Positions 19,392-38,942 of a DNA stretch of 64,000 bases are shown one piece after another (the first letter of the stretch is position 1; each line of letters starts with the position of its first letter). Source of the stretch: Leucobacter chromiisoli (GTDB lineage Bacteria > Actinomycetota > Actinomycetes > Actinomycetales > Microbacteriaceae); the NCBI RefSeq assembly GCF_016522505.1, contig NZ_JAEHOH010000009.1, positions 62,001 to 126,000 of the forward strand, in the 5' to 3' direction. A program made the translations under genes and the position numbers. The notes beneath the pieces are model-generated. The model made no database searches. It was not told the DNA's origin and worked only from the letters and a program-made list of their open reading frames with translations.

Positions 19392-20519
19392 CTACTCGCG
19401 CCATTCCGGGTAGTCGAGTTCGATCCAGTCGCTCTCGCAGGGCGGCCCGGCGGTGTACCCGAACCGGCGATCGAACGGCGAGATCAGCACTCCCGCGAGG
19501 GTCTTCCAGCGCGCCGCCGGCTCCGACCGCTCGTCGGGATGACAGCACACCGAGTTCGGGTAGCCGACGTGATCCTGCAGCGCGCCTCGCAGATCCGCGT
19601 CCGCGAACCCGCCTCCCACCGAGGCGAAGCGTCGCCGCATGCGCCCGAGACGCGCGTAGCTGTCGGCCATCGCGATCGGGGCGAGATCGAAGCCGCCGAC
19701 GATGGGCTCCGTGAAGTGATTGGCGTGCGTGAGCGTGCCATCGTCCGATGCGGTGATCGAGAGATTGTCGGGACCGCCCGGAGAGGCCTCGACATTCAGG
19801 ATCGCGCCGCTCGCATCCGCCAGCACGAAGTTACCCGAGGTCGCACGGGGCATGCCGGCCAGGATCTCGAGCGCCTCCGCCGCGTGAGCCGCGTCCGCCA
19901 CCGAGCGGATCTGCAGATGGTAGGGCACCCCGGCCGTGACGGCGTCGCGAGAGCTCACCAGCGTGTTCATGCCCAGGGCGAGCCCCGAGGCGGTGAGCAC
20001 CATCTTCGCCAGCAGCCCCGCCTCGACGAGCGTCACGTAGTCGGGGCCGTCGGGGCGCGCGACCTCGAGGATGACGACCCCGCCCTCGAGCTCCTCGAGC
20101 CAGTCCCAGTTCTGCCCGACGACCGCGCCGCGGAACGGGCTGCGATCCGCCTCGACCGCGAACGAGGTGCACTCGCCCCTGAGCGCGGCGCCCTTCGCCC
20201 GGGTGGCGCCGTTCAGCACCTCCGAGCGGCAGTTGATCGCCAGGATGTCGTCGAACGGGAGCCCGCTGCCCTCGGCGATCCCGCGGATCTCGACGAGCAG
20301 GTGCGGCGCGTGCCGTTCGATGGCCGGCAGGTATCCGCGCGCGATCCGGATGGCGGCCTCCCACTCGACCCCCTTCGCCGCGAAGGCGCGTTCGTAGCCC
20401 GAGCGGATGATCGCGATCTGCGCCGCGGCGAGCTCGCCGTACTGACGCGACCGATCGGCCGCCTCGCCGCTGATCCGCACCCGAGGGTACGCACGCGCGG
20501 GGGTCGCCGCGCCGCTCAT
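19392..20519 (-). CDS. C45-family Ntn hydrolase (acyl-transferase/amidase fold)
   Basis: Member of the family of isopenicillin N acyltransferase and acyl-CoA:6-APA acyltransferase, which activate themselves by cutting before an internal Cys that becomes the nucleophile. The candidate is Cys117 in RGECTSF, followed by the conserved VVGQNWDW block. C-terminal ANHF and GYPNSVC are also typical. Length 375. It overlaps the upstream deacetylase gene as ATGA and closes a four-gene operon with the hydantoinase/oxoprolinase pair. Prokaryotic members are mostly amide or lactam hydrolases rather than penicillin enzymes, and the context fits N-acyl-amide or cyclic-amide degradation. No signal peptide is seen, so it is cytoplasmic. 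Confidence 0.86.
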   Translation of the reverse strand: MSGAATPARAYPRVRISGEAADRSRQYGELAAAQIAIIRSGYERAFAAKGVEWEAAIRIARGYLPAIERHAPHLLVEIRGIAEGSGLPFDDILAINCRSEVLNGATRAKGAALRGECTSFAVEADRSPFRGAVVGQNWDWLEELEGGVVILEVARPDGPDYVTLVEAGLLAKMVLTASGLALGMNTLVSSRDAVTAGVPYHLQIRSVADAAHAAEALEILAGMPRATSGNFVLADASGAILNVEASPGGPDNLSITASDDGTLTHANHFTEPIVGGFDLAPIAMADSYARLGRMRRRFASVGGGFADADLRGALQDHVGYPNSVCCHPDERSEPAARWKTLAGVLISPFDRRFGYTAGPPCESDWIELDYPEWRE

Positions 20520-21340
20520 CGGTCACCGCCGAGGTCGAGCTCCAGCGGCCCGTGCTCGCGGGCGTAGGCGGCCACCTCGCGGGTCGTGGCGATCCAGGCG
20601 CCGGTGTCCTGCAGGTGGCCGATCACGGTGTCGAGCATCTCGAGGCGAGACGGTCGGCCGGAGATCATCGGGTGCGCGGTGACCATGACGTGGCCGCCGT
20701 GCCGAGCGATGCCGTCGATCTCCGGGATCCAGACGTCGAGCACCTCGCGCGGCGACCGGATCGTCTTCTCCCAGGTGTCGTTCGCGAACCAGAAATGCGG
20801 CGCATCGTCGAGGATCCAGGAGACGGGGACCTCCATGATGTCGTGCGACGGGTGCCGGTACGGCACGATGTCGTCGAGGAGGTTGGAGCTGTACGCGAAG
20901 CCGGCCTCGACGAGGAGGTCGAGCGTGTGCGCACTGAACTCCCACGACGGCGAGCGGTATCCGACGACGTCGGCGCCGAGCGCCCGCAGCGCATCCAGCC
21001 CCGCCCGGAGCTCCTCGCGCTCCTGCTGCTCGGTCATCCCGGTCGGCGAGCTGTGCGAGTGCCCGTGATGGGCGACCTCGTGACCGGCGGCGACGATGGC
21101 GCGGACGGCATCGGGGTGCCGCAGCGCGTCCTTGCCGCAGATGTAGAAGCTCGCCGTCACTGCGTGCTTCTCGAGCAGTCGCAGGATCAGGGGGACGCCG
21201 ACCTTGGGGCCGAACGCCCCTTGCGACAGCACTCCGGGCGCCGAGGCGTTGGCGGGGTTCTCGCCGATCCACACCTCCTCGGCGTCGAAGTCGAAGCTCA
21301 GGGTCGCCCCGTACCGGCGGCCATCGGGCCACTGCGCCAT
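20516..21340 (-). CDS. Polysaccharide deacetylase-family hydrolase (allantoinase/PuuE-like)
   Basis: NodB-fold metal-dependent hydrolase, 274 residues, no signal peptide. The metal/catalytic features are LSFDFDAEEV (acidic motif 1), AHHGHSHSSP (His-x-x-x-His region) and VGYRSPSWEF (motif 3). Cytosolic NodB proteins of this type include PuuE-type allantoinases that open a hydantoin ring. That fits the neighbouring hydantoinase/oxoprolinase genes better than polysaccharide work. The start at 21340 has GAGGGA just upstream. The stop overlaps the C45 hydrolase start, and the gene follows HyuB by one base. Confidence 0.85.
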   Translation of the reverse strand: MAQWPDGRRYGATLSFDFDAEEVWIGENPANASAPGVLSQGAFGPKVGVPLILRLLEKHAVTASFYICGKDALRHPDAVRAIVAAGHEVAHHGHSHSSPTGMTEQQEREELRAGLDALRALGADVVGYRSPSWEFSAHTLDLLVEAGFAYSSNLLDDIVPYRHPSHDIMEVPVSWILDDAPHFWFANDTWEKTIRSPREVLDVWIPEIDGIARHGGHVMVTAHPMISGRPSRLEMLDTVIGHLQDTGAWIATTREVAAYAREHGPLELDLGGDR

Positions 21341-21341
21341 G

Positions 21342-23045
21342 TCATTCCCTCCCTGCGGGATCCGCGCTCGCGCGCGAGGATCCGTCGTCGTCGCTCCGCG
21401 CCTCGGTCCCGCCGAGCCGCCCCTCGCGCGCGTCCCACTCGTGCAGCTCTGCGGGGCGCTCCGCCGGGTCGCCGTAGCCGCCACCGCCGCCGCTCTCGAC
21501 CCGCACGACGGTGCCGGGTGCGAGCACGCGCGAGGTCTTCATCGGCCGATCGATGACGGCGCCGTCCGGGCCGATGACCGTGATGGTCGTCGGCAGCGCG
21601 TCGCCGCCGCCCGCCGCCCCGGCCGGGGCGAATCGCGCATCGGTCTGCTCCGCGTAGAAGGTCGCGTGCTGCGGGTGCTCGAGGATCTCGTACTCCCGCA
21701 CCAGGCCGAGGCCGCCGTGGTACTTGCCCAGGCCCTGCGATCCGGGGCGGAACTCCGTGCGCAGGATCCGCACGTTGTAGTTCGTCTCGACGACCTCGGT
21801 CGGCATCACCCCCACGTTCGCCATGTAGGTGTCGACGCCGTCAAGCCCGTCTCCCTCCCGCGTGGCTCCCGTGCCGCCGCCCACGACATCGGCCATCACG
21901 GACGGGGCGCCGGTGCGCGGGTGGGTCGAGCCGATGTTGAAGCTGAAGAAGCTCACCTGGCTCGAGGCGACCGCGAGGTCGGGCCAGATCCGGTGCATGG
22001 CGTGGATCAGGGTGTCGGCCAGTCGCTGGCACGAGTTGTGCCGGATCGACACCGCCGCGGGCGGCAGCGGGTTCACGACCGAACCCTGCGGAGCCGTGAT
22101 GTCGAGCACCCTGAGCAGGCCGTCGTTCGCGCTCACCGCGGGAGCCACGACCGCGCGCACCGCGTACACGAGGGCGGCGCGCGCGCTCGCCCAGGGGATG
22201 TTCATCGCTCCGGCGGTCTGGGGCCCGCAGCCGGTGAGGTCGATGGCCAGGCGGCCGCCGCGCTTCTCGATGCGCGCGTGGATGCGCGTGGGGTCGCCGC
22301 CGCGGCCGTCGTCGTCGAGCGCTCCCTCGGCCTCGCCCGCACCGTCGGGCAAGGCCGAGAGGAGGCGCCCGATGGTCGTCTCGACGCCGTCCAGCATGCG
22401 CTGCATGACCTCGAGCAGCTCGGCCGTGCCGTACAGGGCGGCGAGCTCGTGCACCCGCTCGGCTCCGAGGTGGCAGGCCGCGCGCTGCGCGCGGAGGTCG
22501 CTGAGCGTCGACAGCGGATCGCGGAAGTTCTCGGTGAGGAGGGCGACGAGGTCCTCGTTCTCCTCGCCGGCGATCGAGAGTCGGATCGGGGGCATGACGA
22601 CCCCCTCGCCGTAGAGGTCGCCGAGCTCCGGCCCCTCGCTTCCGGGATTGACGCCGCCGACGTCGATGTGGTGGGCCGCGGTGCCCGCCCACGCCATCAG
22701 CGCCCCTCCGACGAAGATCGGTGTGACGATGTTGACGTCGGGCAGGTGCATCGCACCCTGATACGGATGGTTGCAGATGTACGCGTCGCCGGCTCGGATG
22801 CGACCCTGCCAGGCGCGGAGCACCGACTTCACCACGAGCGACATCGCCCCGAGCTGAGCCGGGATGTAGTCGGCCTGCGCCACGAGGTCGCCGTCCGCGG
22901 TGAAGAGCGCGCACGAGAAGTCGTCCATGTCGCGGATGATGGGGCTGTAGCTCGAGCGCTTCAGCACGCTGCCCATCTCCTCCGCGGCCGACTGCAGCGC
23001 GGCCGCGGCCACCTCGAAGGTGACGGTGTCCACTGGGGTGCTCAT
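21342..23045 (-). CDS. Hydantoinase B / 5-oxoprolinase subunit-like protein
   Basis: HyuB-type subunit, 567 residues, working with HyuA in ATP-dependent opening of a cyclic amide or in carboxylation/hydrolysis reactions of the oxoprolinase, hydantoinase and acetone carboxylase superfamily. Recognisable blocks: FEVAAAALQSAAEEMGSVL at the start, PIIRDMDDFSCALF, GDAYICNHPYQGAMHLPD, HHIDVGGVNPGS, and GGGGGYGDPAER near the end. A Ser/Asp-rich tail of about 25 residues follows. The ATG overlaps the HyuA stop by four bases. Substrate unknown. The downstream NodB and C45 enzymes suggest sequential amide cleavages. Confidence 0.9.
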   Translation of the reverse strand: MSTPVDTVTFEVAAAALQSAAEEMGSVLKRSSYSPIIRDMDDFSCALFTADGDLVAQADYIPAQLGAMSLVVKSVLRAWQGRIRAGDAYICNHPYQGAMHLPDVNIVTPIFVGGALMAWAGTAAHHIDVGGVNPGSEGPELGDLYGEGVVMPPIRLSIAGEENEDLVALLTENFRDPLSTLSDLRAQRAACHLGAERVHELAALYGTAELLEVMQRMLDGVETTIGRLLSALPDGAGEAEGALDDDGRGGDPTRIHARIEKRGGRLAIDLTGCGPQTAGAMNIPWASARAALVYAVRAVVAPAVSANDGLLRVLDITAPQGSVVNPLPPAAVSIRHNSCQRLADTLIHAMHRIWPDLAVASSQVSFFSFNIGSTHPRTGAPSVMADVVGGGTGATREGDGLDGVDTYMANVGVMPTEVVETNYNVRILRTEFRPGSQGLGKYHGGLGLVREYEILEHPQHATFYAEQTDARFAPAGAAGGGDALPTTITVIGPDGAVIDRPMKTSRVLAPGTVVRVESGGGGGYGDPAERPAELHEWDAREGRLGGTEARSDDDGSSRASADPAGRE

Positions 23046-25108
23046 CGCGACTCCTCGTCTCGGTCTGATTCGGTGACTATGAGGTCGAGCGTGCTGGCCA
23101 CGCGTACGAGCTGGCCGGGCAGGATGACGGAGGTGGCGTCCATCTGCTGGATGATCGCCGGCCCGGTGAACTCGGCGCCCGCGACCAGTGCGCCGCGTTC
23201 GATGACGGGCGTGCGCATGCGCCCGCACCCGGGGAGCAGGACCTCTCGCTCGGCGACGACCGCGTCCTCGGGCAGGGCCCGTGCCGCGACGGGGACCGCG
23301 GGCTCGGCGCCGCGGTCGATCACGCCGGTCGAGGTGAGGCGCACGGTCACGATCTCGACCGGCTCTGCTGCGTTGCTGTGCCCGTATCGCTCATGATGCG
23401 CCTCGTGGAAGCGCTCGGGGATGTCCGCGAGCTCCTCCTCGCCCCACCCCGAGAGCGGAATGTTGAGCTCGAACCCCTGGCCCCGGTAGCGGCAGTCGAC
23501 CGTCGCCGTGTACTCGATGCGGCCGGGGTCCACGCCGTCCTCGGCGAGCTGCTCGGCGGCCTCCTGCGCAGCCTCTTCGAACCACTCCCGGATCCCGGGG
23601 ATGCGCGCGGGTTCGGCTTCGAAGAGCAGGGTCTGGGAGTGGTCGAGCTTGAGCCCGGCGACCAGCAGGCCGTCGGCGGCGAAGAGGCCGGGGCGCAGGG
23701 GGATGATCGCGCTCTTGAGCGCCATGTGCCGCAGGATCAGCCCGGCGTGGAGCGGGCCGGCCCCGCCGAACGCCACGAGCGAGAACTCGCGCGCGTCCAG
23801 GCCCCGCTCGACGCTCACCTTGCGCACGGCGCGGACCATGTGGGCGAGCCCGATGGCGAGGATCGCCTCCGCCGCCTCCTCGACGGCCATGCCGAGCGGC
23901 TCGGCGATCCGGCCGACGGCGGTCACGGCGAGGTCGCGGTCGATGACGAGACCGCCCGCGAGCTCTCCCGAGCCCAGCGTGCCGAGCACGACGTGGGCGT
24001 CGCTGATCGTGGGTTCGACGCCGCCGCGCCCGTACGAGGCCGGGCCCGGAACGGCCTTCGCCGACATGGGTCCCACCTTCAGGCTGCCGGCCTGATCGAT
24101 CCAGGCGATGCTGCCGCCTCCGGCGCCGATCGTGTGGATGTCGACGGTCGGTGCGAGCAGGGTGTGGTCCTGCACCTCCTGCACGGTCGTGAAGGGGATG
24201 CTCGCGTCGCGCAGCAGGCAGACGTCGGTCGAGGTGCCGCCCATGTCGAGGCTGATGAGGTTCGGCTCGCCGAGCGACTCGGCGAGCGCGTGCAGCCCCG
24301 CGACCCCTCCGGCCGGCCCCGAGAGTACCAGGCGGTGCGCTTCCGCCCCCGCGCGAGACGCGGGCACGCAGCCGCCGTTGGACTGCATGACCAGCAGCTG
24401 CGACCCGACGCCGCTGGCAGCGAGCGCGCTGCCGGCGCGGCCCAGATACGCTTCGACGATGGGGCGCAGCGCGGCGTTGATCGCGGTCGTCGCCGTGCGG
24501 GGATACTCGCGGAACTCCCGGACGAGCTCGGACGAGAGGGTCACGGGGGTGTCGGGGAACGCCGCGCGCAGCGCTTCGCCGACCTCGCGCTCGTGCGCGT
24601 CGTTGAGGTAGCTGAAGAGCAGGGAGACGGCGATGGCCTCGGGCGCGGCCGCGCGCAGCTGCTCGATGATCGCCTCGAGGCCGGCGCGGTCCACCGGCTT
24701 CAGCACGCGACCCGCCGAGTCGAGGCGCTCCCCGATCTCGAAGCGCAGCTCGCGCGGCACGAGCTCGGCCGGGCGCCGCGGGGTGAGACTGTAGACATCG
24801 GGGCGGTGCTGCTGCCGGTAGCCCAGCACATCGCGGAACCCCTCGGTGGTGACGAGCGCCGCGCGACCGAGCGAGCCCGTGAGCGTGGCGTTCGTCGCGA
24901 CGGTCGTGCCGTGGCAGACGAGGGACACGTCGGGCAGCTTCACACCCTGATCCTCGAGGGCCGCGACGGCGCTGCGCAGGCCGAGCGACGGATCCGCCGG
25001 CGTCGAGGCCACTTTGGCCTCGACGATCTCGCCACCGCTGCTGCGCGCGATGGCGTCGGTGAAGGTTCCCCCGGCGTCGATGCTGATCGTCCACCTCGGC
25101 AAGGTCAT
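23042..25108 (-). CDS. Hydantoinase A / 5-oxoprolinase subunit-like protein
   Basis: HyuA-type ATP-binding subunit, 688 residues, with an actin-like ATPase fold. Hallmarks are ISIDAGGTFTDAIA at the N-terminus, HGTTVATNATLTG (about residue 63), QSNGGCVPAS (about 265), LSGPAGGVAG and LISLDMGGTSTDV (about 310). The gene starts at an ATG with GAGGGGA upstream and heads a four-gene operon HyuA-HyuB-NodB hydrolase-C45 hydrolase with overlapping or one-base junctions. The divergent 224-base gap to the SDR gene contains repeated copies of a TGACGTATG-like word. Fits N-methylhydantoin, hydantoin or pyroglutamate-type substrates; acetone/acetophenone carboxylase is less likely without a gamma subunit. 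Confidence 0.9.
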   Translation of the reverse strand: MTLPRWTISIDAGGTFTDAIARSSGGEIVEAKVASTPADPSLGLRSAVAALEDQGVKLPDVSLVCHGTTVATNATLTGSLGRAALVTTEGFRDVLGYRQQHRPDVYSLTPRRPAELVPRELRFEIGERLDSAGRVLKPVDRAGLEAIIEQLRAAAPEAIAVSLLFSYLNDAHEREVGEALRAAFPDTPVTLSSELVREFREYPRTATTAINAALRPIVEAYLGRAGSALAASGVGSQLLVMQSNGGCVPASRAGAEAHRLVLSGPAGGVAGLHALAESLGEPNLISLDMGGTSTDVCLLRDASIPFTTVQEVQDHTLLAPTVDIHTIGAGGGSIAWIDQAGSLKVGPMSAKAVPGPASYGRGGVEPTISDAHVVLGTLGSGELAGGLVIDRDLAVTAVGRIAEPLGMAVEEAAEAILAIGLAHMVRAVRKVSVERGLDAREFSLVAFGGAGPLHAGLILRHMALKSAIIPLRPGLFAADGLLVAGLKLDHSQTLLFEAEPARIPGIREWFEEAAQEAAEQLAEDGVDPGRIEYTATVDCRYRGQGFELNIPLSGWGEEELADIPERFHEAHHERYGHSNAAEPVEIVTVRLTSTGVIDRGAEPAVPVAARALPEDAVVAEREVLLPGCGRMRTPVIERGALVAGAEFTGPAIIQQMDATSVILPGQLVRVASTLDLIVTESDRDEESR

Positions 25109-25332
25109 CGTCGATTCCCCTCGGTCGTCCGGGATGGCGGTCCCGCCCCGGGTCACCTCATTGTGCTGCGGCTGCTCGGCCCCGTGCATGGGTCATTCGA
25201 CGTACGGCGCGCGGCGGTCTCGCGCCCGCATCGGCGCCCGCACCGACCCCATACGTCAATCGACCGATGATCCCGGGCGGCGCGGCGGCGAGAGTAGGAG
25301 GCAGACGTCAGCGCACGAGGTTCGAGGAGCAC

Positions 25333-26136
25333 ATGCCATCACCACCCCCCGCCCAGAGGAACGGCGCCGATCGCGCCGCAGTCGCGATCGTCACGGGAGC
25401 GGCCTCGGGCATCGGCCTCGCGACCGCGAGGCGCCTGCTCGCCGACGGGTACCGGCTCGGGCTCGGCGACACCTCGCCGCGGCTCGCCGAGCTCTTCGCC
25501 CCCGAGGTCTCGGAGGGCGCCGTCGTGACCGTCGTGGGCGACCTCGCAGACGAGGCCGTCCGGAGGGAGCTCGTCGAGGCGGCGACGGAGGCGTTCGGGG
25601 GCATCGACGCGCTCGTCAACAACGCCGCCGCGCCGGGTGAGTCCGCCGAGGTCGCCGCGATCGACCTCGACGCCCTGCGGCGCACGCTCGAGGTCAACGT
25701 GGTCGCGGTGATCGGGCTCACCCAGCTGGTCGTGCCGCTGCTCGAGCGCTCGCCGCGCGGGCGCATCGTCAACATGGGTTCACTGTTCGGCGACGAGCCC
25801 GTCGCCGGCGGCGGACCCTACTGCGCGAGCAAGGGCGCGATCCACACCCTGACGCGGGTGCTCGCGATCGAACTGGGCCCGGCGGGCATCACCTGCAACA
25901 CCGTGGCGCCCGGCTTCATCCTCACCCCGATGCACGCGGAGGAGGTGGAGTTCCAGGCGAGGGAGCAGGGGATCACCGCCGAGCAGCGCTACGCCGAGCT
26001 GCGGGAGCGCGTCCCGCTGCGGCGTCACGGCGCCCCCGAGGACGTCGCCGACACCGTCGCCTGGCTGCTCGGCGACGACAGCCGCTACGTGTCGGGTCAG
26101 CGCATCGCCGTGAACGGCGGCGTGCAGTTCGGCTGA
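25333..26136 (+). CDS. SDR-family oxidoreductase
   Basis: NAD(P)-dependent short-chain dehydrogenase of 267 residues. Cofactor loop TGAASGIGLATA, NNAAAP motif, Ser in NMGSLFGD and the catalytic Tyr/Lys pair in YCASKGA are all present, with a normal C-terminus (YVSGQRIAVNGG). An acidic or neutral residue pattern after strand two (GDTS) fits NAD preference, tentatively. GAGGAG precedes the ATG at 25333. It is divergent from the hydantoinase operon and 110 bases before the fused regulator, so it probably oxidises an intermediate of the same pathway. Confidence 0.9.
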   Translation: MPSPPPAQRNGADRAAVAIVTGAASGIGLATARRLLADGYRLGLGDTSPRLAELFAPEVSEGAVVTVVGDLADEAVRRELVEAATEAFGGIDALVNNAAAPGESAEVAAIDLDALRRTLEVNVVAVIGLTQLVVPLLERSPRGRIVNMGSLFGDEPVAGGGPYCASKGAIHTLTRVLAIELGPAGITCNTVAPGFILTPMHAEEVEFQAREQGITAEQRYAELRERVPLRRHGAPEDVADTVAWLLGDDSRYVSGQRIAVNGGVQFG

Positions 26137-26245
26137 GCCCGCCCCGCCGCACGGGGCGCCGCCCGGGCCCGCGCCCCGCCGGCGTCGTGCCCCGCTTGCT
26201 ACTATCTCCCTACCACCCGGGGAGCGATCGGACGGAGAGGTGCTC

Positions 26246-27970
26246 GTGCTGCAGGCAGTCGTTGAGCGCACCATCTCGGCGGCCACTCCGGTGGACTCGC
26301 TCCCGAAGCACGTCCCGCCGGAGATCTGGGGCTACGCCAAGGCGTTCCTGCAGATCCGCCGCCCCGCACTGAGGTTCATCTGGCGCGATGAGAGCCAGTG
26401 GGTCGACGTGCAGCTCACGCTCGAGCACGCTCCCGGGGAACGCAGGCCCGGAACCGAGCGCGTGTTCGTGCGCCTCCGGCCGAGCGAGATGCCGCGAGGG
26501 CTCACGGTGCGCGAGCTCGACGTGCTCACCCTCGTCGCCCTCGGGCACACCAACGGCGGAGTGGCGGAGCGGCTCGGCACCTCCGCGAGGACCGTCTCGA
26601 CCCAGATCGAGCGGCTGCTCGAGAAGCTCGCCCAGAGCTCGCGCGGGGGCCTCGCCGCGCTCGCGGTCGACCTCGGTCTGCTGCGCCTGCCCCTGCCCGG
26701 CGGCCCCCCGGAGAGCACCGGGCTCGGCGTGGCGGAGCTCGAGCTGGCGTACCGGCGGCGCCTCGGGATCGACTACCGGCCGATCCGGGAGGACTTCGCC
26801 GCACGCGTGCCGATCCGCGTCGGAATCCTCAGCCCGGGGACCTCGGTCTCCGACGGGGCCCAGGTGCTGGGCGGCGCGCTCCTGGCGATCGACGAGATCA
26901 ACCGGCACGGCGGCATCGGGGGGCGGAGCATCGAGGCCGTCGCCGTCGAGGTCGACATGTTCGACTGGGCGAGCGTCAGCGCGGGGCTCGGCATGCTCTT
27001 CGAGGCGGACGTCGACGCGATCGTCACGAGCTATGTGAGCGCGGAGCAGCCCGAGGCGCTCGACCTGATCGCCGAGTACGGCAAGCCGTTCCTGCACACG
27101 GCCACGTTCGAGGCCGACGTGCAGCGGGCCGAGCGCGAGCCCTGGAAGTACGGCACGGTGTTCCAGACCTGCGCGTCCGAGAATCACTACGCCCCCGGGA
27201 TGCTGCGCCTGCTCGGACAGCTCGAGCGGCTCGGCGCCTGGACTCCGCCGAGCCGGGTCATCGTGCCGCTCGAGCTGCCCACGGCGAGCATGCACCTGGC
27301 GACCCCGGCGCTGCGCGAGTCTGCGGCGGCGCAGGGGTGGGAGGTCGCCGAGCCGATCCTGACACCACCCGGCGTCACCGACTGGGACGGCGTGGTCGCG
27401 CGGCTGGCGCGGCTGCGCCCCGCCGCGATCCTGTTCGCGAGCTACCTGGAGCAGGAGTTCGCCGCCTTCCAGCGGGCGTTCCTGCGCCACCCGTTCCCCG
27501 CGCTCGTCTACGGCATCTACGCGCCGTCGAACCCGGCCTTCATCGAGGCGCTCGGCCCGGCGGCCGACGGCGTGCTCTGGTCGACCACGACGGGCACGTA
27601 CGACGACGAGTTCGGCGGTCGCTTCCGCGAGCAGTACCGGGCGAAGTACCGCGAGGATCCGGGCTGGTCGATCGGCGGCGCGCTCTACGACCAGGTGCGC
27701 ATGCTCGCCGCGGCCTGGTCCTCCGTCGACCCCGACGACGTGGACGACGTGGTCAAGCACCTCCGGCGCTGGCCCTACCGGGGCGTGAACGGCGTCTACT
27801 ACTTCGGCGAGACGGGCCAGTCGCCGAAGCTCTACCCCGACACCACCAACGACGCTGCGCTGAGTCAGGCTCACCAGATCTACCAGATCCAGGACGGCGA
27901 GCACGTGCTGCTCAGCCCGGCGCCCTTCGGCCGCATCTCGGACTTCCGCTCGCCCGCCTGGCTCTCCTGA
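26246..27970 (+). CDS. Transcription factor: LuxR-type HTH fused to an AmiC/LivJ-like binding-protein domain
   Basis: About 574 residues with an unusual architecture. Residues 1-85 are unassigned. Residues about 85-150 are a LuxR helix-turn-helix (LTVRELDVLTLVALGHTNGGVAERLGT, then SARTVSTQIERLLEKL). Residues about 190 to the end are a periplasmic-binding-protein fold of the branched-chain amino acid/amide type. There is no signal peptide or membrane segment, so the binding domain should sense its ligand in the cytoplasm. The sensor is plainly paralogous to the exported binding protein encoded next door: both share GV(L/I)WSTT, a YQIQD stretch, and a C-terminal SPAP. Translation probably begins at the GTG at 26246, with GGAGAGG five bases upstream; GTG 26240 is an alternative. 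It likely regulates the importer and/or hydantoinase operons. Confidence 0.85.
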   Translation: MLQAVVERTISAATPVDSLPKHVPPEIWGYAKAFLQIRRPALRFIWRDESQWVDVQLTLEHAPGERRPGTERVFVRLRPSEMPRGLTVRELDVLTLVALGHTNGGVAERLGTSARTVSTQIERLLEKLAQSSRGGLAALAVDLGLLRLPLPGGPPESTGLGVAELELAYRRRLGIDYRPIREDFAARVPIRVGILSPGTSVSDGAQVLGGALLAIDEINRHGGIGGRSIEAVAVEVDMFDWASVSAGLGMLFEADVDAIVTSYVSAEQPEALDLIAEYGKPFLHTATFEADVQRAEREPWKYGTVFQTCASENHYAPGMLRLLGQLERLGAWTPPSRVIVPLELPTASMHLATPALRESAAAQGWEVAEPILTPPGVTDWDGVVARLARLRPAAILFASYLEQEFAAFQRAFLRHPFPALVYGIYAPSNPAFIEALGPAADGVLWSTTTGTYDDEFGGRFREQYRAKYREDPGWSIGGALYDQVRMLAAAWSSVDPDDVDDVVKHLRRWPYRGVNGVYYFGETGQSPKLYPDTTNDAALSQAHQIYQIQDGEHVLLSPAPFGRISDFRSPAWLS

Positions 27971-27994
27971 CCGCTTCGCGGTCCTCCCGAGATC

Positions 27995-28006
27995 CGTCAA
28001 ATGACG
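27995..28006. promoter_or_regulatory. Inverted repeat upstream of the ABC importer operon
   Basis: CGTCA-AA-TGACG, perfect five-base arms around AA, lying between the fused regulator gene and the binding-protein gene, about 100 bases before the latter's ATG. The right arm continues as TGACGCATG, which resembles words in the hydantoinase/SDR divergent gap (TGACGTATG on the minus strand at 25250-25258). Candidate operator for the fused regulator. Confidence 0.4.
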
Positions 28007-28101
28007 CATGCCGACGTCTCGACGGGTGACCTAGCGTAAGAGCCGACGTGGCAGGGGGTACCCGGCGGCGCGCGGTCGTTCGCACGAAGGAGTGGAAGAG
28101 T

Positions 28102-29427
28102 ATGAGCGAGAACCAGCCTCCGAGTGGAGTGAAGAGGAAACGGATCACCCGACGCGATCTGGTGCGCACCGCCGGCGCGACCGGACTCCTCGGCATCGTG
28201 GCTGGAGCCGCAGGAGGATACTTCGCGGCGCCGCGCGGCGGAGCGGCGGGCGCCTCGGGCGGCGGGGGCACCATCAAGTTCGGTCTCGTCGCCCCGGTGA
28301 CCGGCCCCTACTCGGGCGACGGCCAGGAGATGGAGCGCGGCGCGAGACTGGCCGTCGAGGACATCAACGCCGAGGGCGGCGTGCTCGGCCAGCAGGTGGA
28401 GCTCGTCGTCGGCGACGTCGGAGACCAGGCGCCGGAGAACTTCATCCAGGTGGCGGAGCGCCTCGTCTCCCGCGAGAAGGTCGCGGCGGCGTCGGGCGGC
28501 TACACGACCACCACGTCGGTCGAGTTCGACACCTACGCGGAGGGCGGGGTTCCGCTCTTCCACACCAACACGCTGCAGGCGAACTCCGACTACGTCGCGG
28601 AGAACGGCATCACGAACATCTTCCAGTGCTGCCCCACAGAGCCCTGGTACGCGAGCGGCTTCCTCCAGCTGATGACGCAGTGGATCGACTCGGGCGTCTG
28701 GACGCCCTCCTCCACGACCGCCGCGGTGATCGCGAGCAACGACTCGTACTCGATCTCCATCGCCACGGTGATGATGGACGGGCTCAAAGAGCTCGGCTGG
28801 GACATCACCATGTACGAGGAGGTCTCCGTCCCCTACGTCGACTGGGGTCCGCAGCTCTCGAAGATCCGCAACAACCCGCCCGGCCTCATCTTCGTCACCG
28901 ACTACCTCGCCGGCGATCTCGCGAGCTTCGCGAAGCAGTTCGCGACCGCCCCGACCCCGTCGCTGCTCTACCAGCAGTACGGACCGAGCGTGCCCGAGTA
29001 CCTCGAGCTCGCGGGCGACGCCGCCAACGGGGTGATCTGGTCGACCACGATCGGCACGCTGCCCGACGACATGGGCACGAGCTTCCGCGAGCGCTACCGC
29101 GACACCTACGGCACCGAGGCGGGCCTCAGCCAGTCGGGCGCGCAGTACGACATCCTGCGCCTCTGGGCGCTGGCGGCCTCGCGAGCCGGCGACGCGTACG
29201 ACACCGAGGGGATCACCGCCGCCATGCGGGGGATCACGTTCCGCGGCGTGGTCGGCACCTACCGCTTCGATCAGACGGACCTCACCGCGATCCCGTACCC
29301 CGACGCGGTGGACGACCCGAGCCTGGGCATGCCGCACCTGACCTATCAGATCCAGGACAAGCAGCAGGTGCTCATCTCGCCCGCGCCGTACATCAACGGC
29401 GAGTTCACCCTTCCGGGCTGGCTCTGA
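28102..29427 (+). CDS. Tat-exported branched-chain/amide-type ABC substrate-binding protein
   Basis: Extracytoplasmic receptor of a Liv/Urt/Fmd-type importer, 441 residues. The N-terminus has a twin-arginine signal (ITRRDLVRTAG followed by a hydrophobic helix GLLGIVAGAAGGYF), no lipobox Cys, and a Gly/Ala linker. The mature part begins IKFGLVAPVTGPYSGDGQEM, characteristic of Peripla_BP_6. AAGGAG lies nine bases ahead of the ATG. It is the first gene of the five-gene importer operon and is the paralogue of the preceding regulator's sensor domain, implying that both bind the same or a related compound. The context favours an amide, urea-like or cyclic amide ligand. Confidence 0.9.
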   Translation: MSENQPPSGVKRKRITRRDLVRTAGATGLLGIVAGAAGGYFAAPRGGAAGASGGGGTIKFGLVAPVTGPYSGDGQEMERGARLAVEDINAEGGVLGQQVELVVGDVGDQAPENFIQVAERLVSREKVAAASGGYTTTTSVEFDTYAEGGVPLFHTNTLQANSDYVAENGITNIFQCCPTEPWYASGFLQLMTQWIDSGVWTPSSTTAAVIASNDSYSISIATVMMDGLKELGWDITMYEEVSVPYVDWGPQLSKIRNNPPGLIFVTDYLAGDLASFAKQFATAPTPSLLYQQYGPSVPEYLELAGDAANGVIWSTTIGTLPDDMGTSFRERYRDTYGTEAGLSQSGAQYDILRLWALAASRAGDAYDTEGITAAMRGITFRGVVGTYRFDQTDLTAIPYPDAVDDPSLGMPHLTYQIQDKQQVLISPAPYINGEFTLPGWL

Positions 29428-30242
29428 TGGGCGCGGGCACGGAGGTGCTCCTCGACGTGCGGGGAGCCACGAAGCGCTACGGCGGCCTGATCGCGGTGAA
29501 CGACGTCAGCTTCAGCGTGCGCCGGGGGGAGATATTCGGGATCGCCGGTCCGAATGGCGCTGGCAAGACCACGCTGTTCGACGTCGTCACCGGCATGGTG
29601 CGCGCGACGGGCGGCGAGATCGACTTCGACGGAGTCTCGATCGTGAGATCGTCGGTGCACGCGATCTGCCACCGCGGCATCACCCGCACGTTCCAGAAGC
29701 CCTCGGTGTTCGACAGCGAGACGGTCATGGGCAACGTGGTCGTCGGGGCCCACTTCGGTTCGGGGAAGCCGTGGTGGAAGAGCCTGAGCCGCGACCCTCT
29801 CGTGTGGGACCGCTCGGTCGAGGCCCTCGAGTTCGTCGGCCTGGCCGAGCGCGCCGAGGAGCGCTCGGGCGACCTCCCCGTCTACGACAAGAAGCGCCTC
29901 ATGATCGCATCGGCGCTGGCGAGCTCGCCGAAGATGCTGTTCCTCGACGAGCCGTTCGGCGGCCTCAACGACGAGGAGATCGACGCGATGCTCGCCCTGC
30001 TCTCGCGCATCAACGCCGAGCGCGGGATCACGATCGTGCTCATCGAGCACGTCATGCGCGCGCTCATGACGCTCGCGGATCGCGTGCTCATCATGGACCA
30101 GGGCAGGACGCTGCGGCAGGGCGATCCGCACACCGTCATGACCGACCCGGACGTCGTCCGGGTCTACCTCGGCTCCTCGGCGGAGGAGGCGGCCTCGACG
30201 GCCGCGATCAAGATCGCCCGTGAGGAGGAGCGCAATGCTTGA
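29427..30242 (+). CDS. Liv-type ABC transporter ATPase (LivG-like) with altered signature loop
   Basis: ATPase of the importer, 271 residues. Walker A GPNGAGKTT (about residue 42), Q-loop in TRTFQKPSVF, Walker B MLFLDEPFGGLN and the switch His in VLIEHVM are intact. The signature loop is odd: where LivG relatives usually have LSYGQ or LPYGDQ, this protein has LPVYDKKRLMIA, losing the Gly. The partner LivF-like ATPase has a normal LSGGE, so the heterodimer may have one degenerate and one active site. The start overlaps the binding-protein stop as TGATG. Confidence 0.9.
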   Translation: MGAGTEVLLDVRGATKRYGGLIAVNDVSFSVRRGEIFGIAGPNGAGKTTLFDVVTGMVRATGGEIDFDGVSIVRSSVHAICHRGITRTFQKPSVFDSETVMGNVVVGAHFGSGKPWWKSLSRDPLVWDRSVEALEFVGLAERAEERSGDLPVYDKKRLMIASALASSPKMLFLDEPFGGLNDEEIDAMLALLSRINAERGITIVLIEHVMRALMTLADRVLIMDQGRTLRQGDPHTVMTDPDVVRVYLGSSAEEAASTAAIKIAREEERNA

Positions 30243-30945
30243 GCTGACCGACGTGGTGGCCGGCTACGGCACCACCACCATCGTGCAGGGCATCTCCCTC
30301 GAGGTGGACCAGGGCGAGTGCTCGGTGCTCGTCGGGCCGAACGGCCACGGGAAGACCACGCTGCTGCGCACCATCAGCGGCCTGATCCGCGCCAGGTCGG
30401 GCAGGATCCGGTTCGACGGGACGGACATCACGCGCGAGCGGGCCGAGAGGCTCGTCGAACGGGGCCTGATCCACATGCCCCAGGGCGACCTGGTGTTCCC
30501 CGACATGACGGTGGAGGAGAACCTGGCGCTCGGAGCGTTCACGAGGCGCGCGTCGAAGCGGGCGAAGCAGCGTCAGGAGGAGGTCTACGCCGTCTTCCCC
30601 CGGCTGCTCGAGCGTCGCACGCAGCGCGCCCGCACCCTCTCGGGCGGCGAGCGCAGGATGCTCGCCATCGGCCGCGGCCTCATGGGCGACGGCAAGCTCA
30701 TCATGATCGACGAGCCGAGCCTGGGGCTGGCGCCCGTGATCGTCGACGAGGTCTACTCGCGGATCCGCCGCATCGTGGACTCGGGCATGACCGTGCTGCT
30801 CGTCGAGGAGAACGTCACGCGGGCGCAGACGCTCGCCGATCGGATCCACCTCGTCGAGAACGGCGGGATCGTCCGCTCGGCGGAGGGTTCGGAGCTCCTC
30901 GACGAGCGGGCGCTCCGAGAGACCTACCTGGGGGTGACGGAATGA
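30235..30945 (+). CDS. Liv-type ABC transporter ATPase (LivF-like)
   Basis: Second ATPase, 236 residues. Walker A GPNGHGKTT, signature LSGGERRMLAIGRGL, Walker B KLIMIDEPSLGL and a Glu in the switch region VLLVEENV, as is usual for LivF. The ATG at 30235 overlaps the LivG-like gene by eight bases and is preceded by GAGGAG within that gene. It pairs with the LivG-like ATPase to power the LivH/LivM permeases. The substrate is shared with the upstream binding protein. Confidence 0.92.
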   Translation: MLELTDVVAGYGTTTIVQGISLEVDQGECSVLVGPNGHGKTTLLRTISGLIRARSGRIRFDGTDITRERAERLVERGLIHMPQGDLVFPDMTVEENLALGAFTRRASKRAKQRQEEVYAVFPRLLERRTQRARTLSGGERRMLAIGRGLMGDGKLIMIDEPSLGLAPVIVDEVYSRIRRIVDSGMTVLLVEENVTRAQTLADRIHLVENGGIVRSAEGSELLDERALRETYLGVTE

Positions 30946-31829
30946 ATCTGATCCTGCAGACCCTGGTCAGCACGCTGGTGCAGGGATCGATGCTCGCGCT
31001 CATCACGATCGGCATGAACCTCGTGTACGGCACGCTCCGCGTGCTGAACATGGCGCAGGGCGTGATGGTGATGGTCGGGGGCATCGCGGCCTGGACCTTC
31101 GTGGCGAACTTCGGCCTCTCGCCCTGGCTGGGGCTGATCATCGCCGTGCTCGCCGCCGCGCTGCTCGGCATGCTGAGCTACGCCGTCGGCGTCAGCCGGC
31201 TGATCGGCCGCGCGGGCATCGACTTCGAGATGACGGCGTTCATCTCGACGTTCGCGATCGCATCGATCGTGCAGAACCTGGTGCAGCTCTTCTACGGACC
31301 GCGCCAGAAGGACTTCCCGACGCTCGTGCCCGGGCGGCTCCAGCTCACGGACGGGGTCTCCATCACGTGGCATCAGCTGCTGACCGCGGGGATCGCGATC
31401 TTCGCGCTCACCGCGCTCGGCCTCTTCCTCGCCAAGTCGCGGTACGGCCTCGCCATCGTGGCGGTGGCGCAGAACCTCGATGCGGCGAGGCTCATGGGCA
31501 TCCCCGCCCGCCGGGCCTACGTGCTCACGATGGGGCTCGCCGCGGGCCTCGCGGGTCTCGCGGGCGTGCTGCTCGCCCCCGTGTACTTCGTCTCGCCCAA
31601 CATGGGCGACCTGCCGATGCTGCAAGCGCTGATCGTCGCGATCTTCGCGGGCCTCGGCAGCACGCGCGGCACCATCATCGCCGCGTACATCATCGGTTTC
31701 GTGCAGGCGGCGGTCTCCATCTTCTGGACGTCGACGTACGCGATGCCGGTGCTCTACGCGCTGATCGTCGTGGTGCTCATCGCGCGTCCCTTCGGTATCG
31801 CCGGCAAGCCGCAGGAGGCAAGGCTATGA
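30942..31829 (+). CDS. Liv-type ABC permease (LivH-like)
   Basis: Membrane permease of 295 residues with about eight hydrophobic helices. The N-terminus, LVQGSMLALITIGMNLVYGT, and the following LRVLNMAQGVMVM segment are hallmarks of LivH/UrtB proteins. The conserved cytoplasmic loop AVAQNLDAARLMGIP marks the ATPase contact. The ATG overlaps the LivF-like stop by four bases. It forms the translocation path with the LivM-like subunit encoded next. Confidence 0.92.
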   Translation: MNLILQTLVSTLVQGSMLALITIGMNLVYGTLRVLNMAQGVMVMVGGIAAWTFVANFGLSPWLGLIIAVLAAALLGMLSYAVGVSRLIGRAGIDFEMTAFISTFAIASIVQNLVQLFYGPRQKDFPTLVPGRLQLTDGVSITWHQLLTAGIAIFALTALGLFLAKSRYGLAIVAVAQNLDAARLMGIPARRAYVLTMGLAAGLAGLAGVLLAPVYFVSPNMGDLPMLQALIVAIFAGLGSTRGTIIAAYIIGFVQAAVSIFWTSTYAMPVLYALIVVVLIARPFGIAGKPQEARL

Positions 31830-32932
31830 ACTCGAATCGCACGCAGGCCCTCGACGCGTCGGCCGGGTCCGCGCTCGGGCGAGGGGAGGCACCCCGCTGG
31901 GGCGCGACCTCGATGGGGTGGCCCACCCCTCGGCCCGCGCTCGCGGGAGCGGTGCTGCTCGTCGCCGTCGTCTTCCCGTTCATCGCGCCGGATCGCAGCT
32001 GGCTGAGCACGGCGGCGCTCGCGATGATCACCATCACGCTCGCGCAGAGCTGGAACCTCGTGCTCGGCTACGGCGGGGTGTGGAACTTCGGCCAGCTCGC
32101 CTTCTACGCGCTCGGCGCCTACTCGGCGGCCCTCGTCGCCACCTACCTGCCGCTCTCGCCGTGGATCTCGATTCCGCTCGCGGGCCTCGTGTCGGGTGCG
32201 ATCGCGCTGCTGCTGTCGATCCCCGTGCTCAGGCTGCGCGGCATCTACGTGTCGCTGCTCACGTTCGGCTTCGCCGAGGTCGTGCGCCTCCTGATCGTGG
32301 CCGACCAGAGCGGCGTGACCGGCGGCAGCTACGGCATGTCCGGATTCGCGGGCTTCGGGTTCTCGGGGCCGCAGGCGCTGAGCGTCAACTACTGGATCGG
32401 GCTCGGCGCGGCCGTGCTCACGACCCTGATCCTGTACGCGATGATCCGCTCGCCGCTCGGCAACGGGATGATCGCGATGCGGGACAACCCGGCGCTGGCG
32501 TCGGCGCGCGGCATCGGACAGCGGACCTATCAGATGCTGATCTTCGCGATCTCGGGCTTCCTCGCCGGCGTGGCCGGGGCCGTGTACGCGAACGTCTTCG
32601 AGGTCGCGTCGCCCACGCTGATGGGGCTCGGGCCGATGACCCTCATCGTCACGATGATGGTGGTCGGCGGGCTCGGCACGATCACGGGACCCATCATCGG
32701 CACGCTGCTGATCTCGTTCGTGCAGATGCAGTTGCAGGACGTGCCCGAGATCCGATTCATCGCGCTCGGAGCGGTGCTGCTCGTCGTGATCCTCCTGATG
32801 CCCCGAGGGCTCGTCCCGTACCTCAGCGAGGCCTGGGCGAGGTTCCGGTTCTGGGTGGACGAGGATCAGGACTGGACGGACGAGGACTACGAGGACGACC
32901 CGCAGCCGCGTCGCGCTCAGCTGGCGAGGTAG
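31826..32932 (+). CDS. Liv-type ABC permease (LivM-like)
   Basis: Second permease, 368 residues. LAQSWNLVLGYGGVWNFGQLAFYALGAY and RLRGIYVSLLTFGFAEVVR are LivM/UrtC signatures, and AMRDNPALASARGI is the ATPase-coupling loop. A 40-residue hydrophilic N-terminal extension and an acidic C-terminal tail (DEDQDWTDEDYEDD) are additions. The start overlaps LivH as ATGA. The last 16 bases overlap the tail of the convergent SDR gene. Confidence 0.92.
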   Translation: MNSNRTQALDASAGSALGRGEAPRWGATSMGWPTPRPALAGAVLLVAVVFPFIAPDRSWLSTAALAMITITLAQSWNLVLGYGGVWNFGQLAFYALGAYSAALVATYLPLSPWISIPLAGLVSGAIALLLSIPVLRLRGIYVSLLTFGFAEVVRLLIVADQSGVTGGSYGMSGFAGFGFSGPQALSVNYWIGLGAAVLTTLILYAMIRSPLGNGMIAMRDNPALASARGIGQRTYQMLIFAISGFLAGVAGAVYANVFEVASPTLMGLGPMTLIVTMMVVGGLGTITGPIIGTLLISFVQMQLQDVPEIRFIALGAVLLVVILLMPRGLVPYLSEAWARFRFWVDEDQDWTDEDYEDDPQPRRAQLAR

Positions 32933-33648
32933 CCGCCGTCCACGTGCACGGTGGTTCCGGTGATGTAGGCGGCGGAACCGCTCGCGAGGAACAGGCACGC
33001 CGCCGCGACGTCGTCGACCGTGCCGAGGCGGCGCGCCGGCAGGTGCGCGGTGAGCGCCTCGACGGCCCTCGGGGTGTTCCCGAGGGTCAGCATCGGAGTA
33101 TCGATCATGCCCGGGGCGACGGCGTTCACGCGGATCCCCCGCCCGCCGAGCTCGGCCGCCAGCTGCTGGGCGAGGCTCACGATCGCGCCCTTGCTCGCGG
33201 CGTAGGCCGATCCGGGCTCCGTCTCGTCGCCGCGGCCGTACGCGACCGAGCTGAGCAGCACGATCGCTCCCTCGTCGATGATCCGCGAAGCCTCCCGCGA
33301 GACGAGGAAGGAGCCGCGGCCGTTGACGCGCATCGAGAGATCCCACTCCTCGGCCGACGTCTCGGCGAGCGCCTTCCAGCGGTAGACGCCGGCGCAGTGC
33401 ACCACGGCGTCGGGGGCGCCGCCCAGCAGCGCCGGAGCCTGCGAGAAGACCTCGGTGATCCGCGCCTCGTCCGAGACGTCGGCGGCCCGCTGGACGAGCC
33501 CCGGGGCGTCCCAGGCCGCGTCGGGGTGCAGGTCGATGGCGAGCACCCGGCCGCCGGAGGCGAGCGCGCCCTCCGCGACGGCTCGGCCGATGCCCGAAGC
33601 GGCGCCCGTCACGACGACTCGGCGCGGCAGGGTGCTGTTGAGATCCAT
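32917..33648 (-). CDS. SDR-family oxidoreductase
   Basis: Short-chain dehydrogenase of 243 residues. Cofactor loop TGAASGIGRAVA, an Asp-Leu after strand two (LAIDLHPD, suggesting NAD), HCAGVY, Ser in LLSSVAYG, catalytic YAASKGA and a C-terminal YITGTTVHVDGGY. It runs convergently into the LivM-like gene, overlapping it by 16 bases. On its own strand it follows the dipeptide-type ABC operon after 103 bases, so it could be the last gene of that transcript. Confidence 0.9.
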   Translation of the reverse strand: MDLNSTLPRRVVVTGAASGIGRAVAEGALASGGRVLAIDLHPDAAWDAPGLVQRAADVSDEARITEVFSQAPALLGGAPDAVVHCAGVYRWKALAETSAEEWDLSMRVNGRGSFLVSREASRIIDEGAIVLLSSVAYGRGDETEPGSAYAASKGAIVSLAQQLAAELGGRGIRVNAVAPGMIDTPMLTLGNTPRAVEALTAHLPARRLGTVDDVAAACLFLASGSAAYITGTTVHVDGGYLAS

Positions 33649-33751
33649 CGGGTGTCCTCTCCACGGTGCGGTACCACCTCATCAGACCACGCCGGCCCGG
33701 ATCGCCGCGTCCGTGATTTGGCGGATATCGGTCGGCCGGAGCCGTGCGCCC

Positions 33752-34600
33752 TCAGGCCTCAGGCACGACCGACATGCGCTGGGTGAAGGTCATCCGGTCG
33801 CGCACCACACGCTCGGGATCCCAGTCGGGGCCGGGCGTCGACGCGACGAGCAGCTGAGAGTAGGGATGCTCGGGCGCTTCGAGGACCCTGCCGGTCGCGC
33901 CCTGCTCGACGATCGAGCCGCGGAAGAGCACGATCACCCGCTGGCACAGCTCCTGGACCACGGCGAGGTCGTGGCTCACGAACAGATAGCTCACACCCGA
34001 ATCGCGCTGGATCTCGGCCAGCAGGTCGAGCACCTGCGCCTGCACCGACACGTCGAGGGCCGACACCGCCTCGTCGAGCACCACGAGCTTCGGCTCGACC
34101 GCGAGCGCCCGGGCGATCGCGACCCGCTGCCGCTGGCCGCCGGAGAGCTCGTGCGGTCGAGCGGCGGCTTGGCGCTCCGTGAGGCGCACGCGATCGAGCA
34201 GCCGGAGCGCACCGGAGCGCGCTTCGGCCCGCCCGCTCGCTCTCCCGTGCTGCAGCAGTGTGCGCTGCAGCATCTCGCCGACCGCGAGGCGTCGATCCAG
34301 CGAACCGTTCGGATCCTGGAACACCATCTGCGCCGCCCGTGCCCGCGCCAGACGCGCGCCGCGTCCCCGCGCGGGCCGCAGCACGTCGGCTCCGTCGATG
34401 AGCGCCTCTCCGGAGTCCGCCCGTTCCAGCCCCACGAGGATGCGCGCGATCGTCGACTTGCCCGACCCGGATTCCCCCACGAGCCCGAGCGCCTCGCCGG
34501 CCTCGATCGAGAAGCTCGTCCGGTTCACGGCCGTCACGTCCTCGGCGCCCCGGCCCATCTGGAACACGCGGTGCAACTCGGTGACCTCGACGAGACTCAT
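33752..34600 (-). CDS. Peptide/opine-type ABC ATPase (DppF-like)
   Basis: Second ATPase of the family-5 importer, 282 residues. Walker A GESGSGKST, Q-loop QMVFQDPNGSL, signature LSGGQRQRVAIARAL, Walker B LVVLDEAVSALD and switch His FVSHDL. The C-terminal oligopeptide-transporter extension (HPYSQLLVASTPGPD) is present. The ATG at 34600 overlaps the DppD-like stop by four bases. Longer in-frame starts lie wholly within the upstream gene and are rejected. Confidence 0.92.
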   Translation of the reverse strand: MSLVEVTELHRVFQMGRGAEDVTAVNRTSFSIEAGEALGLVGESGSGKSTIARILVGLERADSGEALIDGADVLRPARGRGARLARARAAQMVFQDPNGSLDRRLAVGEMLQRTLLQHGRASGRAEARSGALRLLDRVRLTERQAAARPHELSGGQRQRVAIARALAVEPKLVVLDEAVSALDVSVQAQVLDLLAEIQRDSGVSYLFVSHDLAVVQELCQRVIVLFRGSIVEQGATGRVLEAPEHPYSQLLVASTPGPDWDPERVVRDRMTFTQRMSVVPEA

Positions 34601-35391: not shown

Positions 35392-35395
35392 CGGT

Positions 35396-37191: not shown

Positions 37192-37197
37192 GTCGGG

Positions 37198-38844: not shown

Positions 38845-38942
38845 CGAAAACGCCTCCTTGTCAGCGTATGTGTTCATCAAACTTCGTTGTTTGGCCGATC
38901 GCCCGGCGTCCCTGCTGATCGTCGCGGGCGGCGGGCTCGGGA

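Follow-up and report, generated by a model that had tools for sequence, protein, structure and literature searches.

A predicted LuxR-type regulator with a Liv/AmiC-type sensor domain beside amide-hydrolase genes in Leucobacter chromiisoli

We analyzed a 64,000-nucleotide stretch of Leucobacter chromiisoli DNA (contig NZ_JAEHOH010000009.1, positions 62,001 to 126,000), referred to here as the window. It contains a single open frame for a protein, the fusion, in which a LuxR/NarL-type helix-turn-helix (HTH) is followed by a Liv/AmiC-type periplasmic-binding-protein domain. Upstream lie a short-chain dehydrogenase (SDR) gene and divergently oriented hydantoinase-like genes, and downstream are the genes of a substrate-binding protein (SBP) and a LIV-type ABC importer. 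A palindrome in the gap between the fusion and SBP genes is a candidate operator. The coordinates of all features are given in Table 1.

The fusion protein and its family

The fusion gene starts with GTG and has GGAGAGG upstream. An earlier note, made from the sequence alone, had proposed that the protein combines a LuxR HTH with a complete Peripla_BP_6 domain placed after it, and that it has no export signal or membrane helix. The domain search bore out the first claim, as both domains scored above the curated Pfam cut-offs, with Peripla_BP_6 covering residues 189–525 (97.7 bits, cut-off 31.7, E 1.4e-27). GerE and Peripla_BP_6 were likewise above the cut-offs in all eight fusion proteins scanned, i.e. 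that of the window and seven relatives. The binding-protein domain after the HTH comprises about 385 residues and belongs, by Peripla_BP_6 sequence and fold matches, to the Liv/AmiC cluster of type I binding proteins. The second claim agreed with the hydrophobicity profile of the fusion, which displayed no leader or membrane helix and had its highest 19-residue Kyte–Doolittle mean (1.25) at residue 242. Judged by its sequence, the fusion appears to be cytoplasmic.

The AlphaFold2 model of the fusion was confident (pLDDT 91.3). In this model, residues 1–84 form a PAS-like fold with a weak match, a feature that the earlier note did not contain. A Pfam scan of the fusion at E values up to 1 revealed no PAS, receiver, autoinducer-binding or LacI HTH domain. 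No whole-chain model for the fusion was found in NCBIfam, where all 23 hits (E up to 0.1) were partial and below the cut-offs. The second-best structural match of the window sensor domain was 8wch, which is bound to L-pyroglutamate, a lactam.

The fusion was found in four of the 299 family genomes (G000, which is the window's own genome, G047, G223, and G291). Of 394 class genomes, 11 had a match at E 1e-30, and in five of these it aligns across the HTH (G000, G591, G586, G357, and G466). Scanning a contig collection with an alignment-based profile gave 64 fusion loci, and a single-sequence scan of the same collection gave 27 pattern-matching stretches and no relatives. Homologues were also present on the plasmids pAt14-818c_b (Agrobacterium) and pYJND-2 (Paenarthrobacter). 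The set used for comparison consisted of 70 rows, namely the window, L037–L100, L030, L035, L036, L013, and L014; L031–L034 were omitted as copies of contig-collection loci. At least eight of 12 HTH key residues were kept in 68 of the 70 rows, and the remaining two, L086 and L095, failed this count because their reading frames are broken. Since the HTH-then-binding-domain order recurs in 68 of 70 homologous rows, the fusion is not a frameshift artefact or a chance product. It is a conserved, widespread family in which the HTH has been kept.

Some individual loci deserve mention. The broken frames of L086 (Streptomyces sp.) and L095 (Actinomycetospora sp.) may reflect sequencing error or decay. 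L058:9978-10850 is a second fusion-homologous stretch, carried by the other strand of the contig and possibly a paralogue cut at the locus end. In L013 (CP115909.1) and L014 (NZ_CP053551.1), the regulator is carried by plasmids typed as conjugative and lies beside C-N hydrolase and polysaccharide-deacetylase-like genes.

A predicted operator in fusion-associated promoters

The palindrome was first noticed in intergenic gaps of Leucobacter relatives, where it occupies the same place between the fusion and SBP genes. The consensus of the predicted operator is CATCCGTCANNTGACGGATG, found in promoters of fusion-associated genes. In the window, the copy designated O-SBP falls within 27971–28101, a fragment proposed for gel shift in the earlier note; the note itself did not mention the palindrome.

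There were 24 occurrences of CGTCANNTGACG in the 70 loci, and 23 of them were flanked by AT at the expected position on one or both sides, AT being outside the search pattern. Most of these sites were intergenic or lay over the last fusion codons, beside genes for the SBP, the polysaccharide-deacetylase-family protein (PDA), HyuA/SDR or the fusion. The exceptions were a site in L054 with no labelled gene within 150 bp, and L037:9475, an exact 12-mer inside the fusion gene that has no AT flank and was excluded from the matrix. When the leave-one-out matrix was applied to the 51 non-training loci, 20 of them had their top match in the promoter zone, which covers 8.9% of the sequence, as compared with a mean of 4.3 and a maximum of 10 for 30 dyad-preserving permuted matrices.

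In the window's own genome (3.35 Mb), the perfect AT-flanked site occurred only at C38:89992 (27991–28010 in the window) and C36:67813. Allowing one mismatch added C7:85127, which was taken as a chance match inside an open frame that we take to be that of ribosomal protein S2, and allowing two mismatches added the hyuA/SDR site, C1:8956, and C38:146567. The C36 site (G000:C36:67813–67830, or L125:9814–9831) precedes genes for two Hist_deacetyl proteins, a Peripla_BP_4 protein, an ABC ATPase, a permease, and an Amidase, and this operon is a predicted distant member of the regulon. A 19-base form of the site was present in four of the 299 family genomes (G000, G047, G223, and G285) and the reversed pattern in none of them. 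The fusion and the site, each present in four genomes when counted singly, coincided in three (one-sided Fisher test, 3.6e-6). When up to one mismatch was allowed, the site was found in three of the seven other fusion genomes (G047, G223, and G591), in each case at the fusion itself or no more than about 5 kb from it.

Branch-specific palindromes were also observed, close to CGTCGGTCANNTGACCGACG in L035, L036, L073, L077, and L079, and AATCCGTCGAACGACGGACC in L095 with similar ones in L084 and L092. The operator in its CATCCGTCANNTGACGGATG form is not family-wide, as several branches do not have it. The idea that the palindrome is an attenuator or terminator was set aside by eye: the stem is short, there is no T run, and the element recurs in promoter position.

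The adjacent binding protein and the gene neighbourhoods

As the earlier note had pointed out, the same binding fold is encoded, with a Tat-like leader, downstream of the fusion, and we confirmed the common stretches GVLWSTT/GVIWSTT, YQIQD, and SPAP. The two proteins were 34% identical over 391 columns (E 1e-61). In the sensor-domain tree, 59 fusion rows and 17 adjacent SBPs were split by one branch with an SH-aLRT value of 100. This tree omitted L068, L086, and L095 (partial or broken) and eight near-duplicate fusion rows; rows L019–L024 were dropped because of wrong frames and very long branches. The separate clades led us to reject a recent origin of the fusion by copying of the adjacent SBP, which in this tree is a sister lineage of the fused sensor and not its recent parent. 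The simplest reading of the two-clade tree is one old fusion event.

Neighbouring genes were labelled by BLAST of reference proteins against open frames (E 1e-8, half of the query covered), and the counts refer to the fetched flanks only, some contigs ending early. A PDA gene was near the fusion in 54 of the 69 loci with a labelled fusion; the SBP, HyuB, and C-N hydrolase were each found in 19, HyuA in 18, and the AAT-family protein in 15. Of the five hydrolase kinds counted (PDA, HyuA, HyuB, C-N hydrolase, AAT), 60 of the 70 loci had one or more, and 17 loci had the LIV-type SBP together with the LivH permease. As a base rate, the window's own genome has three PF01522 places and three PF01968 places. 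Three low-identity PDA proteins that were scanned (L032, L035, and L067) all matched PF01522, as did those of the window and L030. The 26–34% matches to LivF/LivG are probably generic ABC ATPases. These counts suggest that the feature common to most loci is amide-hydrolase chemistry rather than the LIV importer. Our guess, made from the enzyme families, is that the unifying theme may be the catabolism of cyclic amides, imides or ureides.

In the window itself, the PDB matches of HyuA were N-methylhydantoinase and 5-oxoprolinase. The PDA protein gave a TIGR03212 match below the cut-off; it is similar to uncharacterised deacetylases and has a more distant likeness to PuuE allantoinase. On the minus strand at 33752–40097, there are genes for an Opp-type importer and another AAT-family gene, so the amide/peptide theme may reach past the operator-linked genes. 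Elsewhere, the neighbours of the fusion in L013 are cytosine permease and hydantoinase genes, and those in L084 are a RutA-like monooxygenase (below the RutA cut-off) and a penicillin-amidase-family gene. At L067:4754-7266, upstream of the regulator, lie 5-oxoprolinase PxpA and PxpBC-like genes. Together with the L-pyroglutamate-bound 8wch, they are a hint of lactam sensing.

Ten loci had no counted hydrolase, i.e. L068 (a 3.7-kb contig), three from Actinomycetospora (L084, L092, and L095), L087, and five from Pasteurellaceae. In three of the Pasteurellaceae loci, which were read out (L085, L091, and L098), a gene for a TorA-like molybdopterin reductase lies 3' of the regulator. L091 scored above the cut-off with TorA/S-N-oxide reductase models and has a TorC-like cytochrome, which in L085 and L098 was recognized by eye. 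This suggests a changed regulon in the Pasteurellaceae branch.

Table 1. Genes and candidate regulatory elements of the window, in order of position
Feature	Coordinates	Strand	Remarks
AAT-family (acyl-CoA:6-aminopenicillanic acid acyltransferase) protein	19392..20480	-	PF03417
Polysaccharide-deacetylase-family protein (PDA), distantly PuuE-allantoinase-like	20516..21340	-	PF01522; best PDB match 3rxz; 3cl6 (PuuE) E 1.1e-15
Hydantoinase B / caprolactamase-beta-like	21342..23045	-	PF02538; NF050157 211 bits (below cut-off of 1000)
Hydantoinase A (hyuA) / caprolactamase-alpha-like	23042..25108	-	PF01968; NF050156 456.7 bits (below cut-off of 1000); start 25108 preferred
-10-like hexamer CACAAT for hyuA	25165..25160	-	
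Degenerate candidate operator O-hyuA, CGTACGTCGAATGACCCATG	25187..25206	-	5/10 dyad pairs; score 12.1; similar sites in Leucobacter loci
Degenerate candidate operator O-SDR, CATACGTCAATCGACCGATG	25250..25269	+	7/10 dyad pairs; leave-one-out score 16.5; between hyuA and SDR
-10-like hexamer GAGAGT for SDR	25290..25295	+	
Short-chain dehydrogenase (SDR), upstream of fusion	25333..26136	+	Pfam; start picked downstream of operator
Fusion regulator, PAS-like / LuxR HTH / Peripla_BP_6	26246..27970	+	574 aa; single open frame
N-terminal PAS-like domain, residues 3-80	26252..26485	+	beta-alpha-beta-beta-beta; AlphaFold2 model, weak match
LuxR/NarL-type HTH, residues 86-139	26501..26662	+	PF00196 GerE 38.8 bits (cut-off 23.5), E 7e-10
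Liv/AmiC-type periplasmic-binding-protein sensor domain, residues 189-573	26810..27964	+	
Candidate operator O-SBP, GATCCGTCAAATGACGCATG	27991..28010	+	7/10 dyad pairs; centre 101 bp before SBP start
-10-like hexamer TAGCGT for SBP	28032..28037	+	21 bp after O-SBP; operator centre about -43.5
Substrate-binding protein (SBP)	28102..29427	+	twin-arginine-like leader (ITRRDLVRTAG...)
LIV-type ABC importer genes: two ATPases, two permeases	29427..32932	+	four overlapping CDS; gene calls, order conserved in relatives; names by sequence and position
Second short-chain dehydrogenase	32917..33648	-	Pfam
Possible weak operator upstream of second SDR	33708..33727	-	5/10 dyad pairs; score 12.3; similar sites in L037 and L030

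The earlier note had suggested a regulator measuring the importer's own ligand. A one-component regulator of local operons is still the likely identity of the fusion, and the same-ligand part may be too narrow, because the LIV-type SBP and LivH are found together in only 17 loci and the sensors and SBPs form separate clades. For the same two reasons, it is a real possibility, though not the one we would favour, that the fusion regulates these genes while sensing a molecule unrelated to the importer cargo, such as a pathway intermediate, its likeness to the SBP then being a matter of ancestry. Some aligned loops that, judging from LIV-type proteins, would be expected near the pocket also differ (e.g. 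TSYVSAEQ vs GGYTTTTS). Against an unrelated ligand, 54 conserved positions, including H284, T287, Y422, Y425, and W445, are identical in both clades, which makes related ligands for the sensor and the SBP plausible, and in several loci both the fusion and SBP genes adjoin the same predicted operator. Sensing of an unrelated molecule would be compatible with the activator role considered below.

Promoter geometry, proposed mechanism and known systems

The lux box and other sites of class II activators are positioned near -42. In our set, NANNNT was located 20 or 21 bp from the end of the operator 20-mer towards the gene in 34 of the 73 site–gene pairs, whereas 28 other adjacent spacings gave a mean of 4.0 and a maximum of 8. 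If these hexamers are -10 elements, the operator centre would be near -42.5 to -43.5, which is the geometry of a class II activator. Read by eye, the promoters had no -35 element at normal spacing. The preferred spacing of 20–21 bp is the main argument for activation.

From the computed architecture, family conservation, operator, spacing, and neighbourhood, we infer a ligand, a direction of regulation, a dimer, and an allosteric coupling, and on this basis the fusion is probably a cytoplasmic, ligand-responsive one-component activator of amide import and catabolism. A nutrient of the amide type, most probably a cyclic amide, imide or ureide or else an opened intermediate, would enter the cell via the importer and bind the Liv/AmiC-type domain, which would then close. 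Closure would shift the N-terminal half (the PAS-like domain and the NarL-type HTH, presumably as a dimer) on CATCCGTCANNTGACGGATG. The dimer, at about -43, would occupy the place of the -35 element and recruit RNA polymerase by class II activation. The predicted targets are hyuAB, SDR–fusion (a positive feedback), the SBP–importer operon, and the distant C36 hydrolase/amidase operon. Autoactivation via O-SDR is plausible, since the SDR and fusion genes are codirectional with a gap of 109 bp (26137–26245).

Several observations weigh against the activator interpretation. The spacing count overstates the independent evidence, because the pairs are related and divergent sites were counted both ways, and the C36 site has no good -10 hexamer at 20–21 bp. 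In the window alone, a one-mismatch palindrome search found three sites when 4.0 were expected, which is not significant; the support for the operator is therefore comparative. G291 has the fusion without the site, and four of the seven other fusion genomes have no site within one mismatch. Conversely, G285 has the site without the fusion; that site is inside a called gene and was taken as chance. The best site was outside the promoter zone in 31 of the 51 non-training loci, and only 11 of the 20 promoter-zone sites scored above 5, L035 and L036 among them being near-copies. No common operator emerged from a free dyad search in the Rhizobiales, SDR-SDR, and Pasteurellaceae groups. Identity to the window PDA was only 29–34% for 23 of the 54 PDA labels, and the five Pasteurellaceae loci (L085, L088, L091, L093, and L098) had none of the five hydrolase kinds nearby.

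The fusion could instead be a LacI-like repressor that acts on the same operators and is released once ligand binding has closed the sensor domain. The HTH-first order with a type I binding-protein fold after it is the layout of LacI, and a dimer at -43 could also block polymerase. However, repressor sites are usually variable in position and overlap the -10 element or the start site, whereas the sites here are in the -35 zone, at a preferred 20–21 bp from a -10-like hexamer and with no normally spaced -35 element. We therefore regard repression as unlikely. Far less likely still is an AmiC-like action of the fusion through a partner protein, in which the HTH would be passive or vestigial and the palindrome would belong to another regulator: the HTH residues are kept in 68 of 70 rows, the site and the fusion coincide across genomes, and no other regulator was seen among the part of the window's neighbouring genes scanned by Pfam. 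That the fusion is an ordinary exported binding protein resembling an HTH protein by chance, as the public annotation of both plasmid homologues as ABC transporter substrate-binding protein would imply, is refuted by the GerE scores (above the cut-off in eight of eight proteins scanned), the HTH conservation (68/70), and the lack of a hydrophobic leader.

Beyond the activator role in the window, a broader picture, to which we give about even weight, is that of a widespread, apparently undescribed regulator class with two potential sensory modules (PAS-like and Liv/AmiC-type) around one LuxR HTH. Driven by ligand, its members would act as class II activators at CATCCGTCANNTGACGGATG or at diverged operators, and would serve the use of cyclic amides, imides, and ureides in Actinobacteria and Alphaproteobacteria and, in one branch of the Pasteurellaceae, a TorCA-like S/N-oxide reductase. 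Because both annotated plasmid homologues carry transporter binding-protein labels, the family may be hidden in annotation under such names. For this regulator, which combines AmiC-type sensing with a LuxR HTH on one chain, an exact operator, the geometry of the promoter, and another operon of the regulon are predicted. It could also help to assign substrates to two poorly understood kinds of enzyme, hydantoinase/caprolactamase-like and polysaccharide-deacetylase-like. Should its ligand prove to be a lactam or imide, the regulator would serve directly as a biosensor for nylon precursors, hydantoins, and compounds related to them.

The fusion shares features with several known systems. The AmiC/AmiR system of Pseudomonas aeruginosa senses amides, and AmiC holds a separate RNA-binding antiterminator, AmiR, with an ANTAR domain. 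Here, the sensor and the DNA-binding domain are on one chain with a predicted DNA palindrome, and no AmiR-like partner was found among the window genes scanned by Pfam (a scan without 29427–32932 and 33752–37191). The exported substrate-binding proteins of ABC importers differ from the fusion, which has no N-terminal hydrophobic segment and carries an HTH before the binding domain. 3h5l of Silicibacter pomeroyi, deposited as a putative ABC transporter binding protein, has no HTH in the matched chain. In a single-sequence search, the PDB entry that matched the HTH region best was EL222 (8a5r, E 9.6e-6), a PAS/LOV-LuxR protein. In both proteins a PAS-like domain, weakly assigned in the fusion, comes before the LuxR HTH, and the fusion adds a binding-protein sensor. 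The NarL/FixJ response regulators have the same HTH family (matches to DevR, VraR, and NarL), whereas the fusion has no receiver domain by Pfam; nor did Pfam, at E up to 1, find the autoinducer-binding domain of the LuxR quorum-sensing receptors.

In a census of 991 LuxR proteins from actinobacteria, published in 2012 (PMC3466318), the part of the text consulted names REC, PAS, HDc, AAA, CHD, FHA, PKc, TPR, and CSP_CDS as partner domains in the figure legends and assigns the LuxR HTH a C-terminal position. The fusion departs from the definition in that part of the census, as its HTH is at residues 86–139 of 574 with the sensor domain after it. In the same portion, the stem "periplas" is absent and the single use of "substrate-binding" concerns a cyclase. 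Consistent with the earlier note, which knew of no well-described fusion of this kind, we found no LuxR-HTH/binding-protein fusion described in the titles and abstract openings of the open-licence PubMed Central papers that our searches brought up.

The LacI/GalR proteins resemble the fusion in having an N-terminal HTH, a C-terminal type I binding-protein fold, and a palindromic site. The fusion differs from them in its NarL/LuxR HTH, PAS-like N-terminus, Liv-type instead of ribose-type sensor, and activator-like site position. One-component regulators with a binding-protein sensor are thus known from LacI and, by function, from AmiC, and it is the combination that is new here. AmiC-like sensing in a LacI-like layout describes the fusion better than a wholly new principle would.
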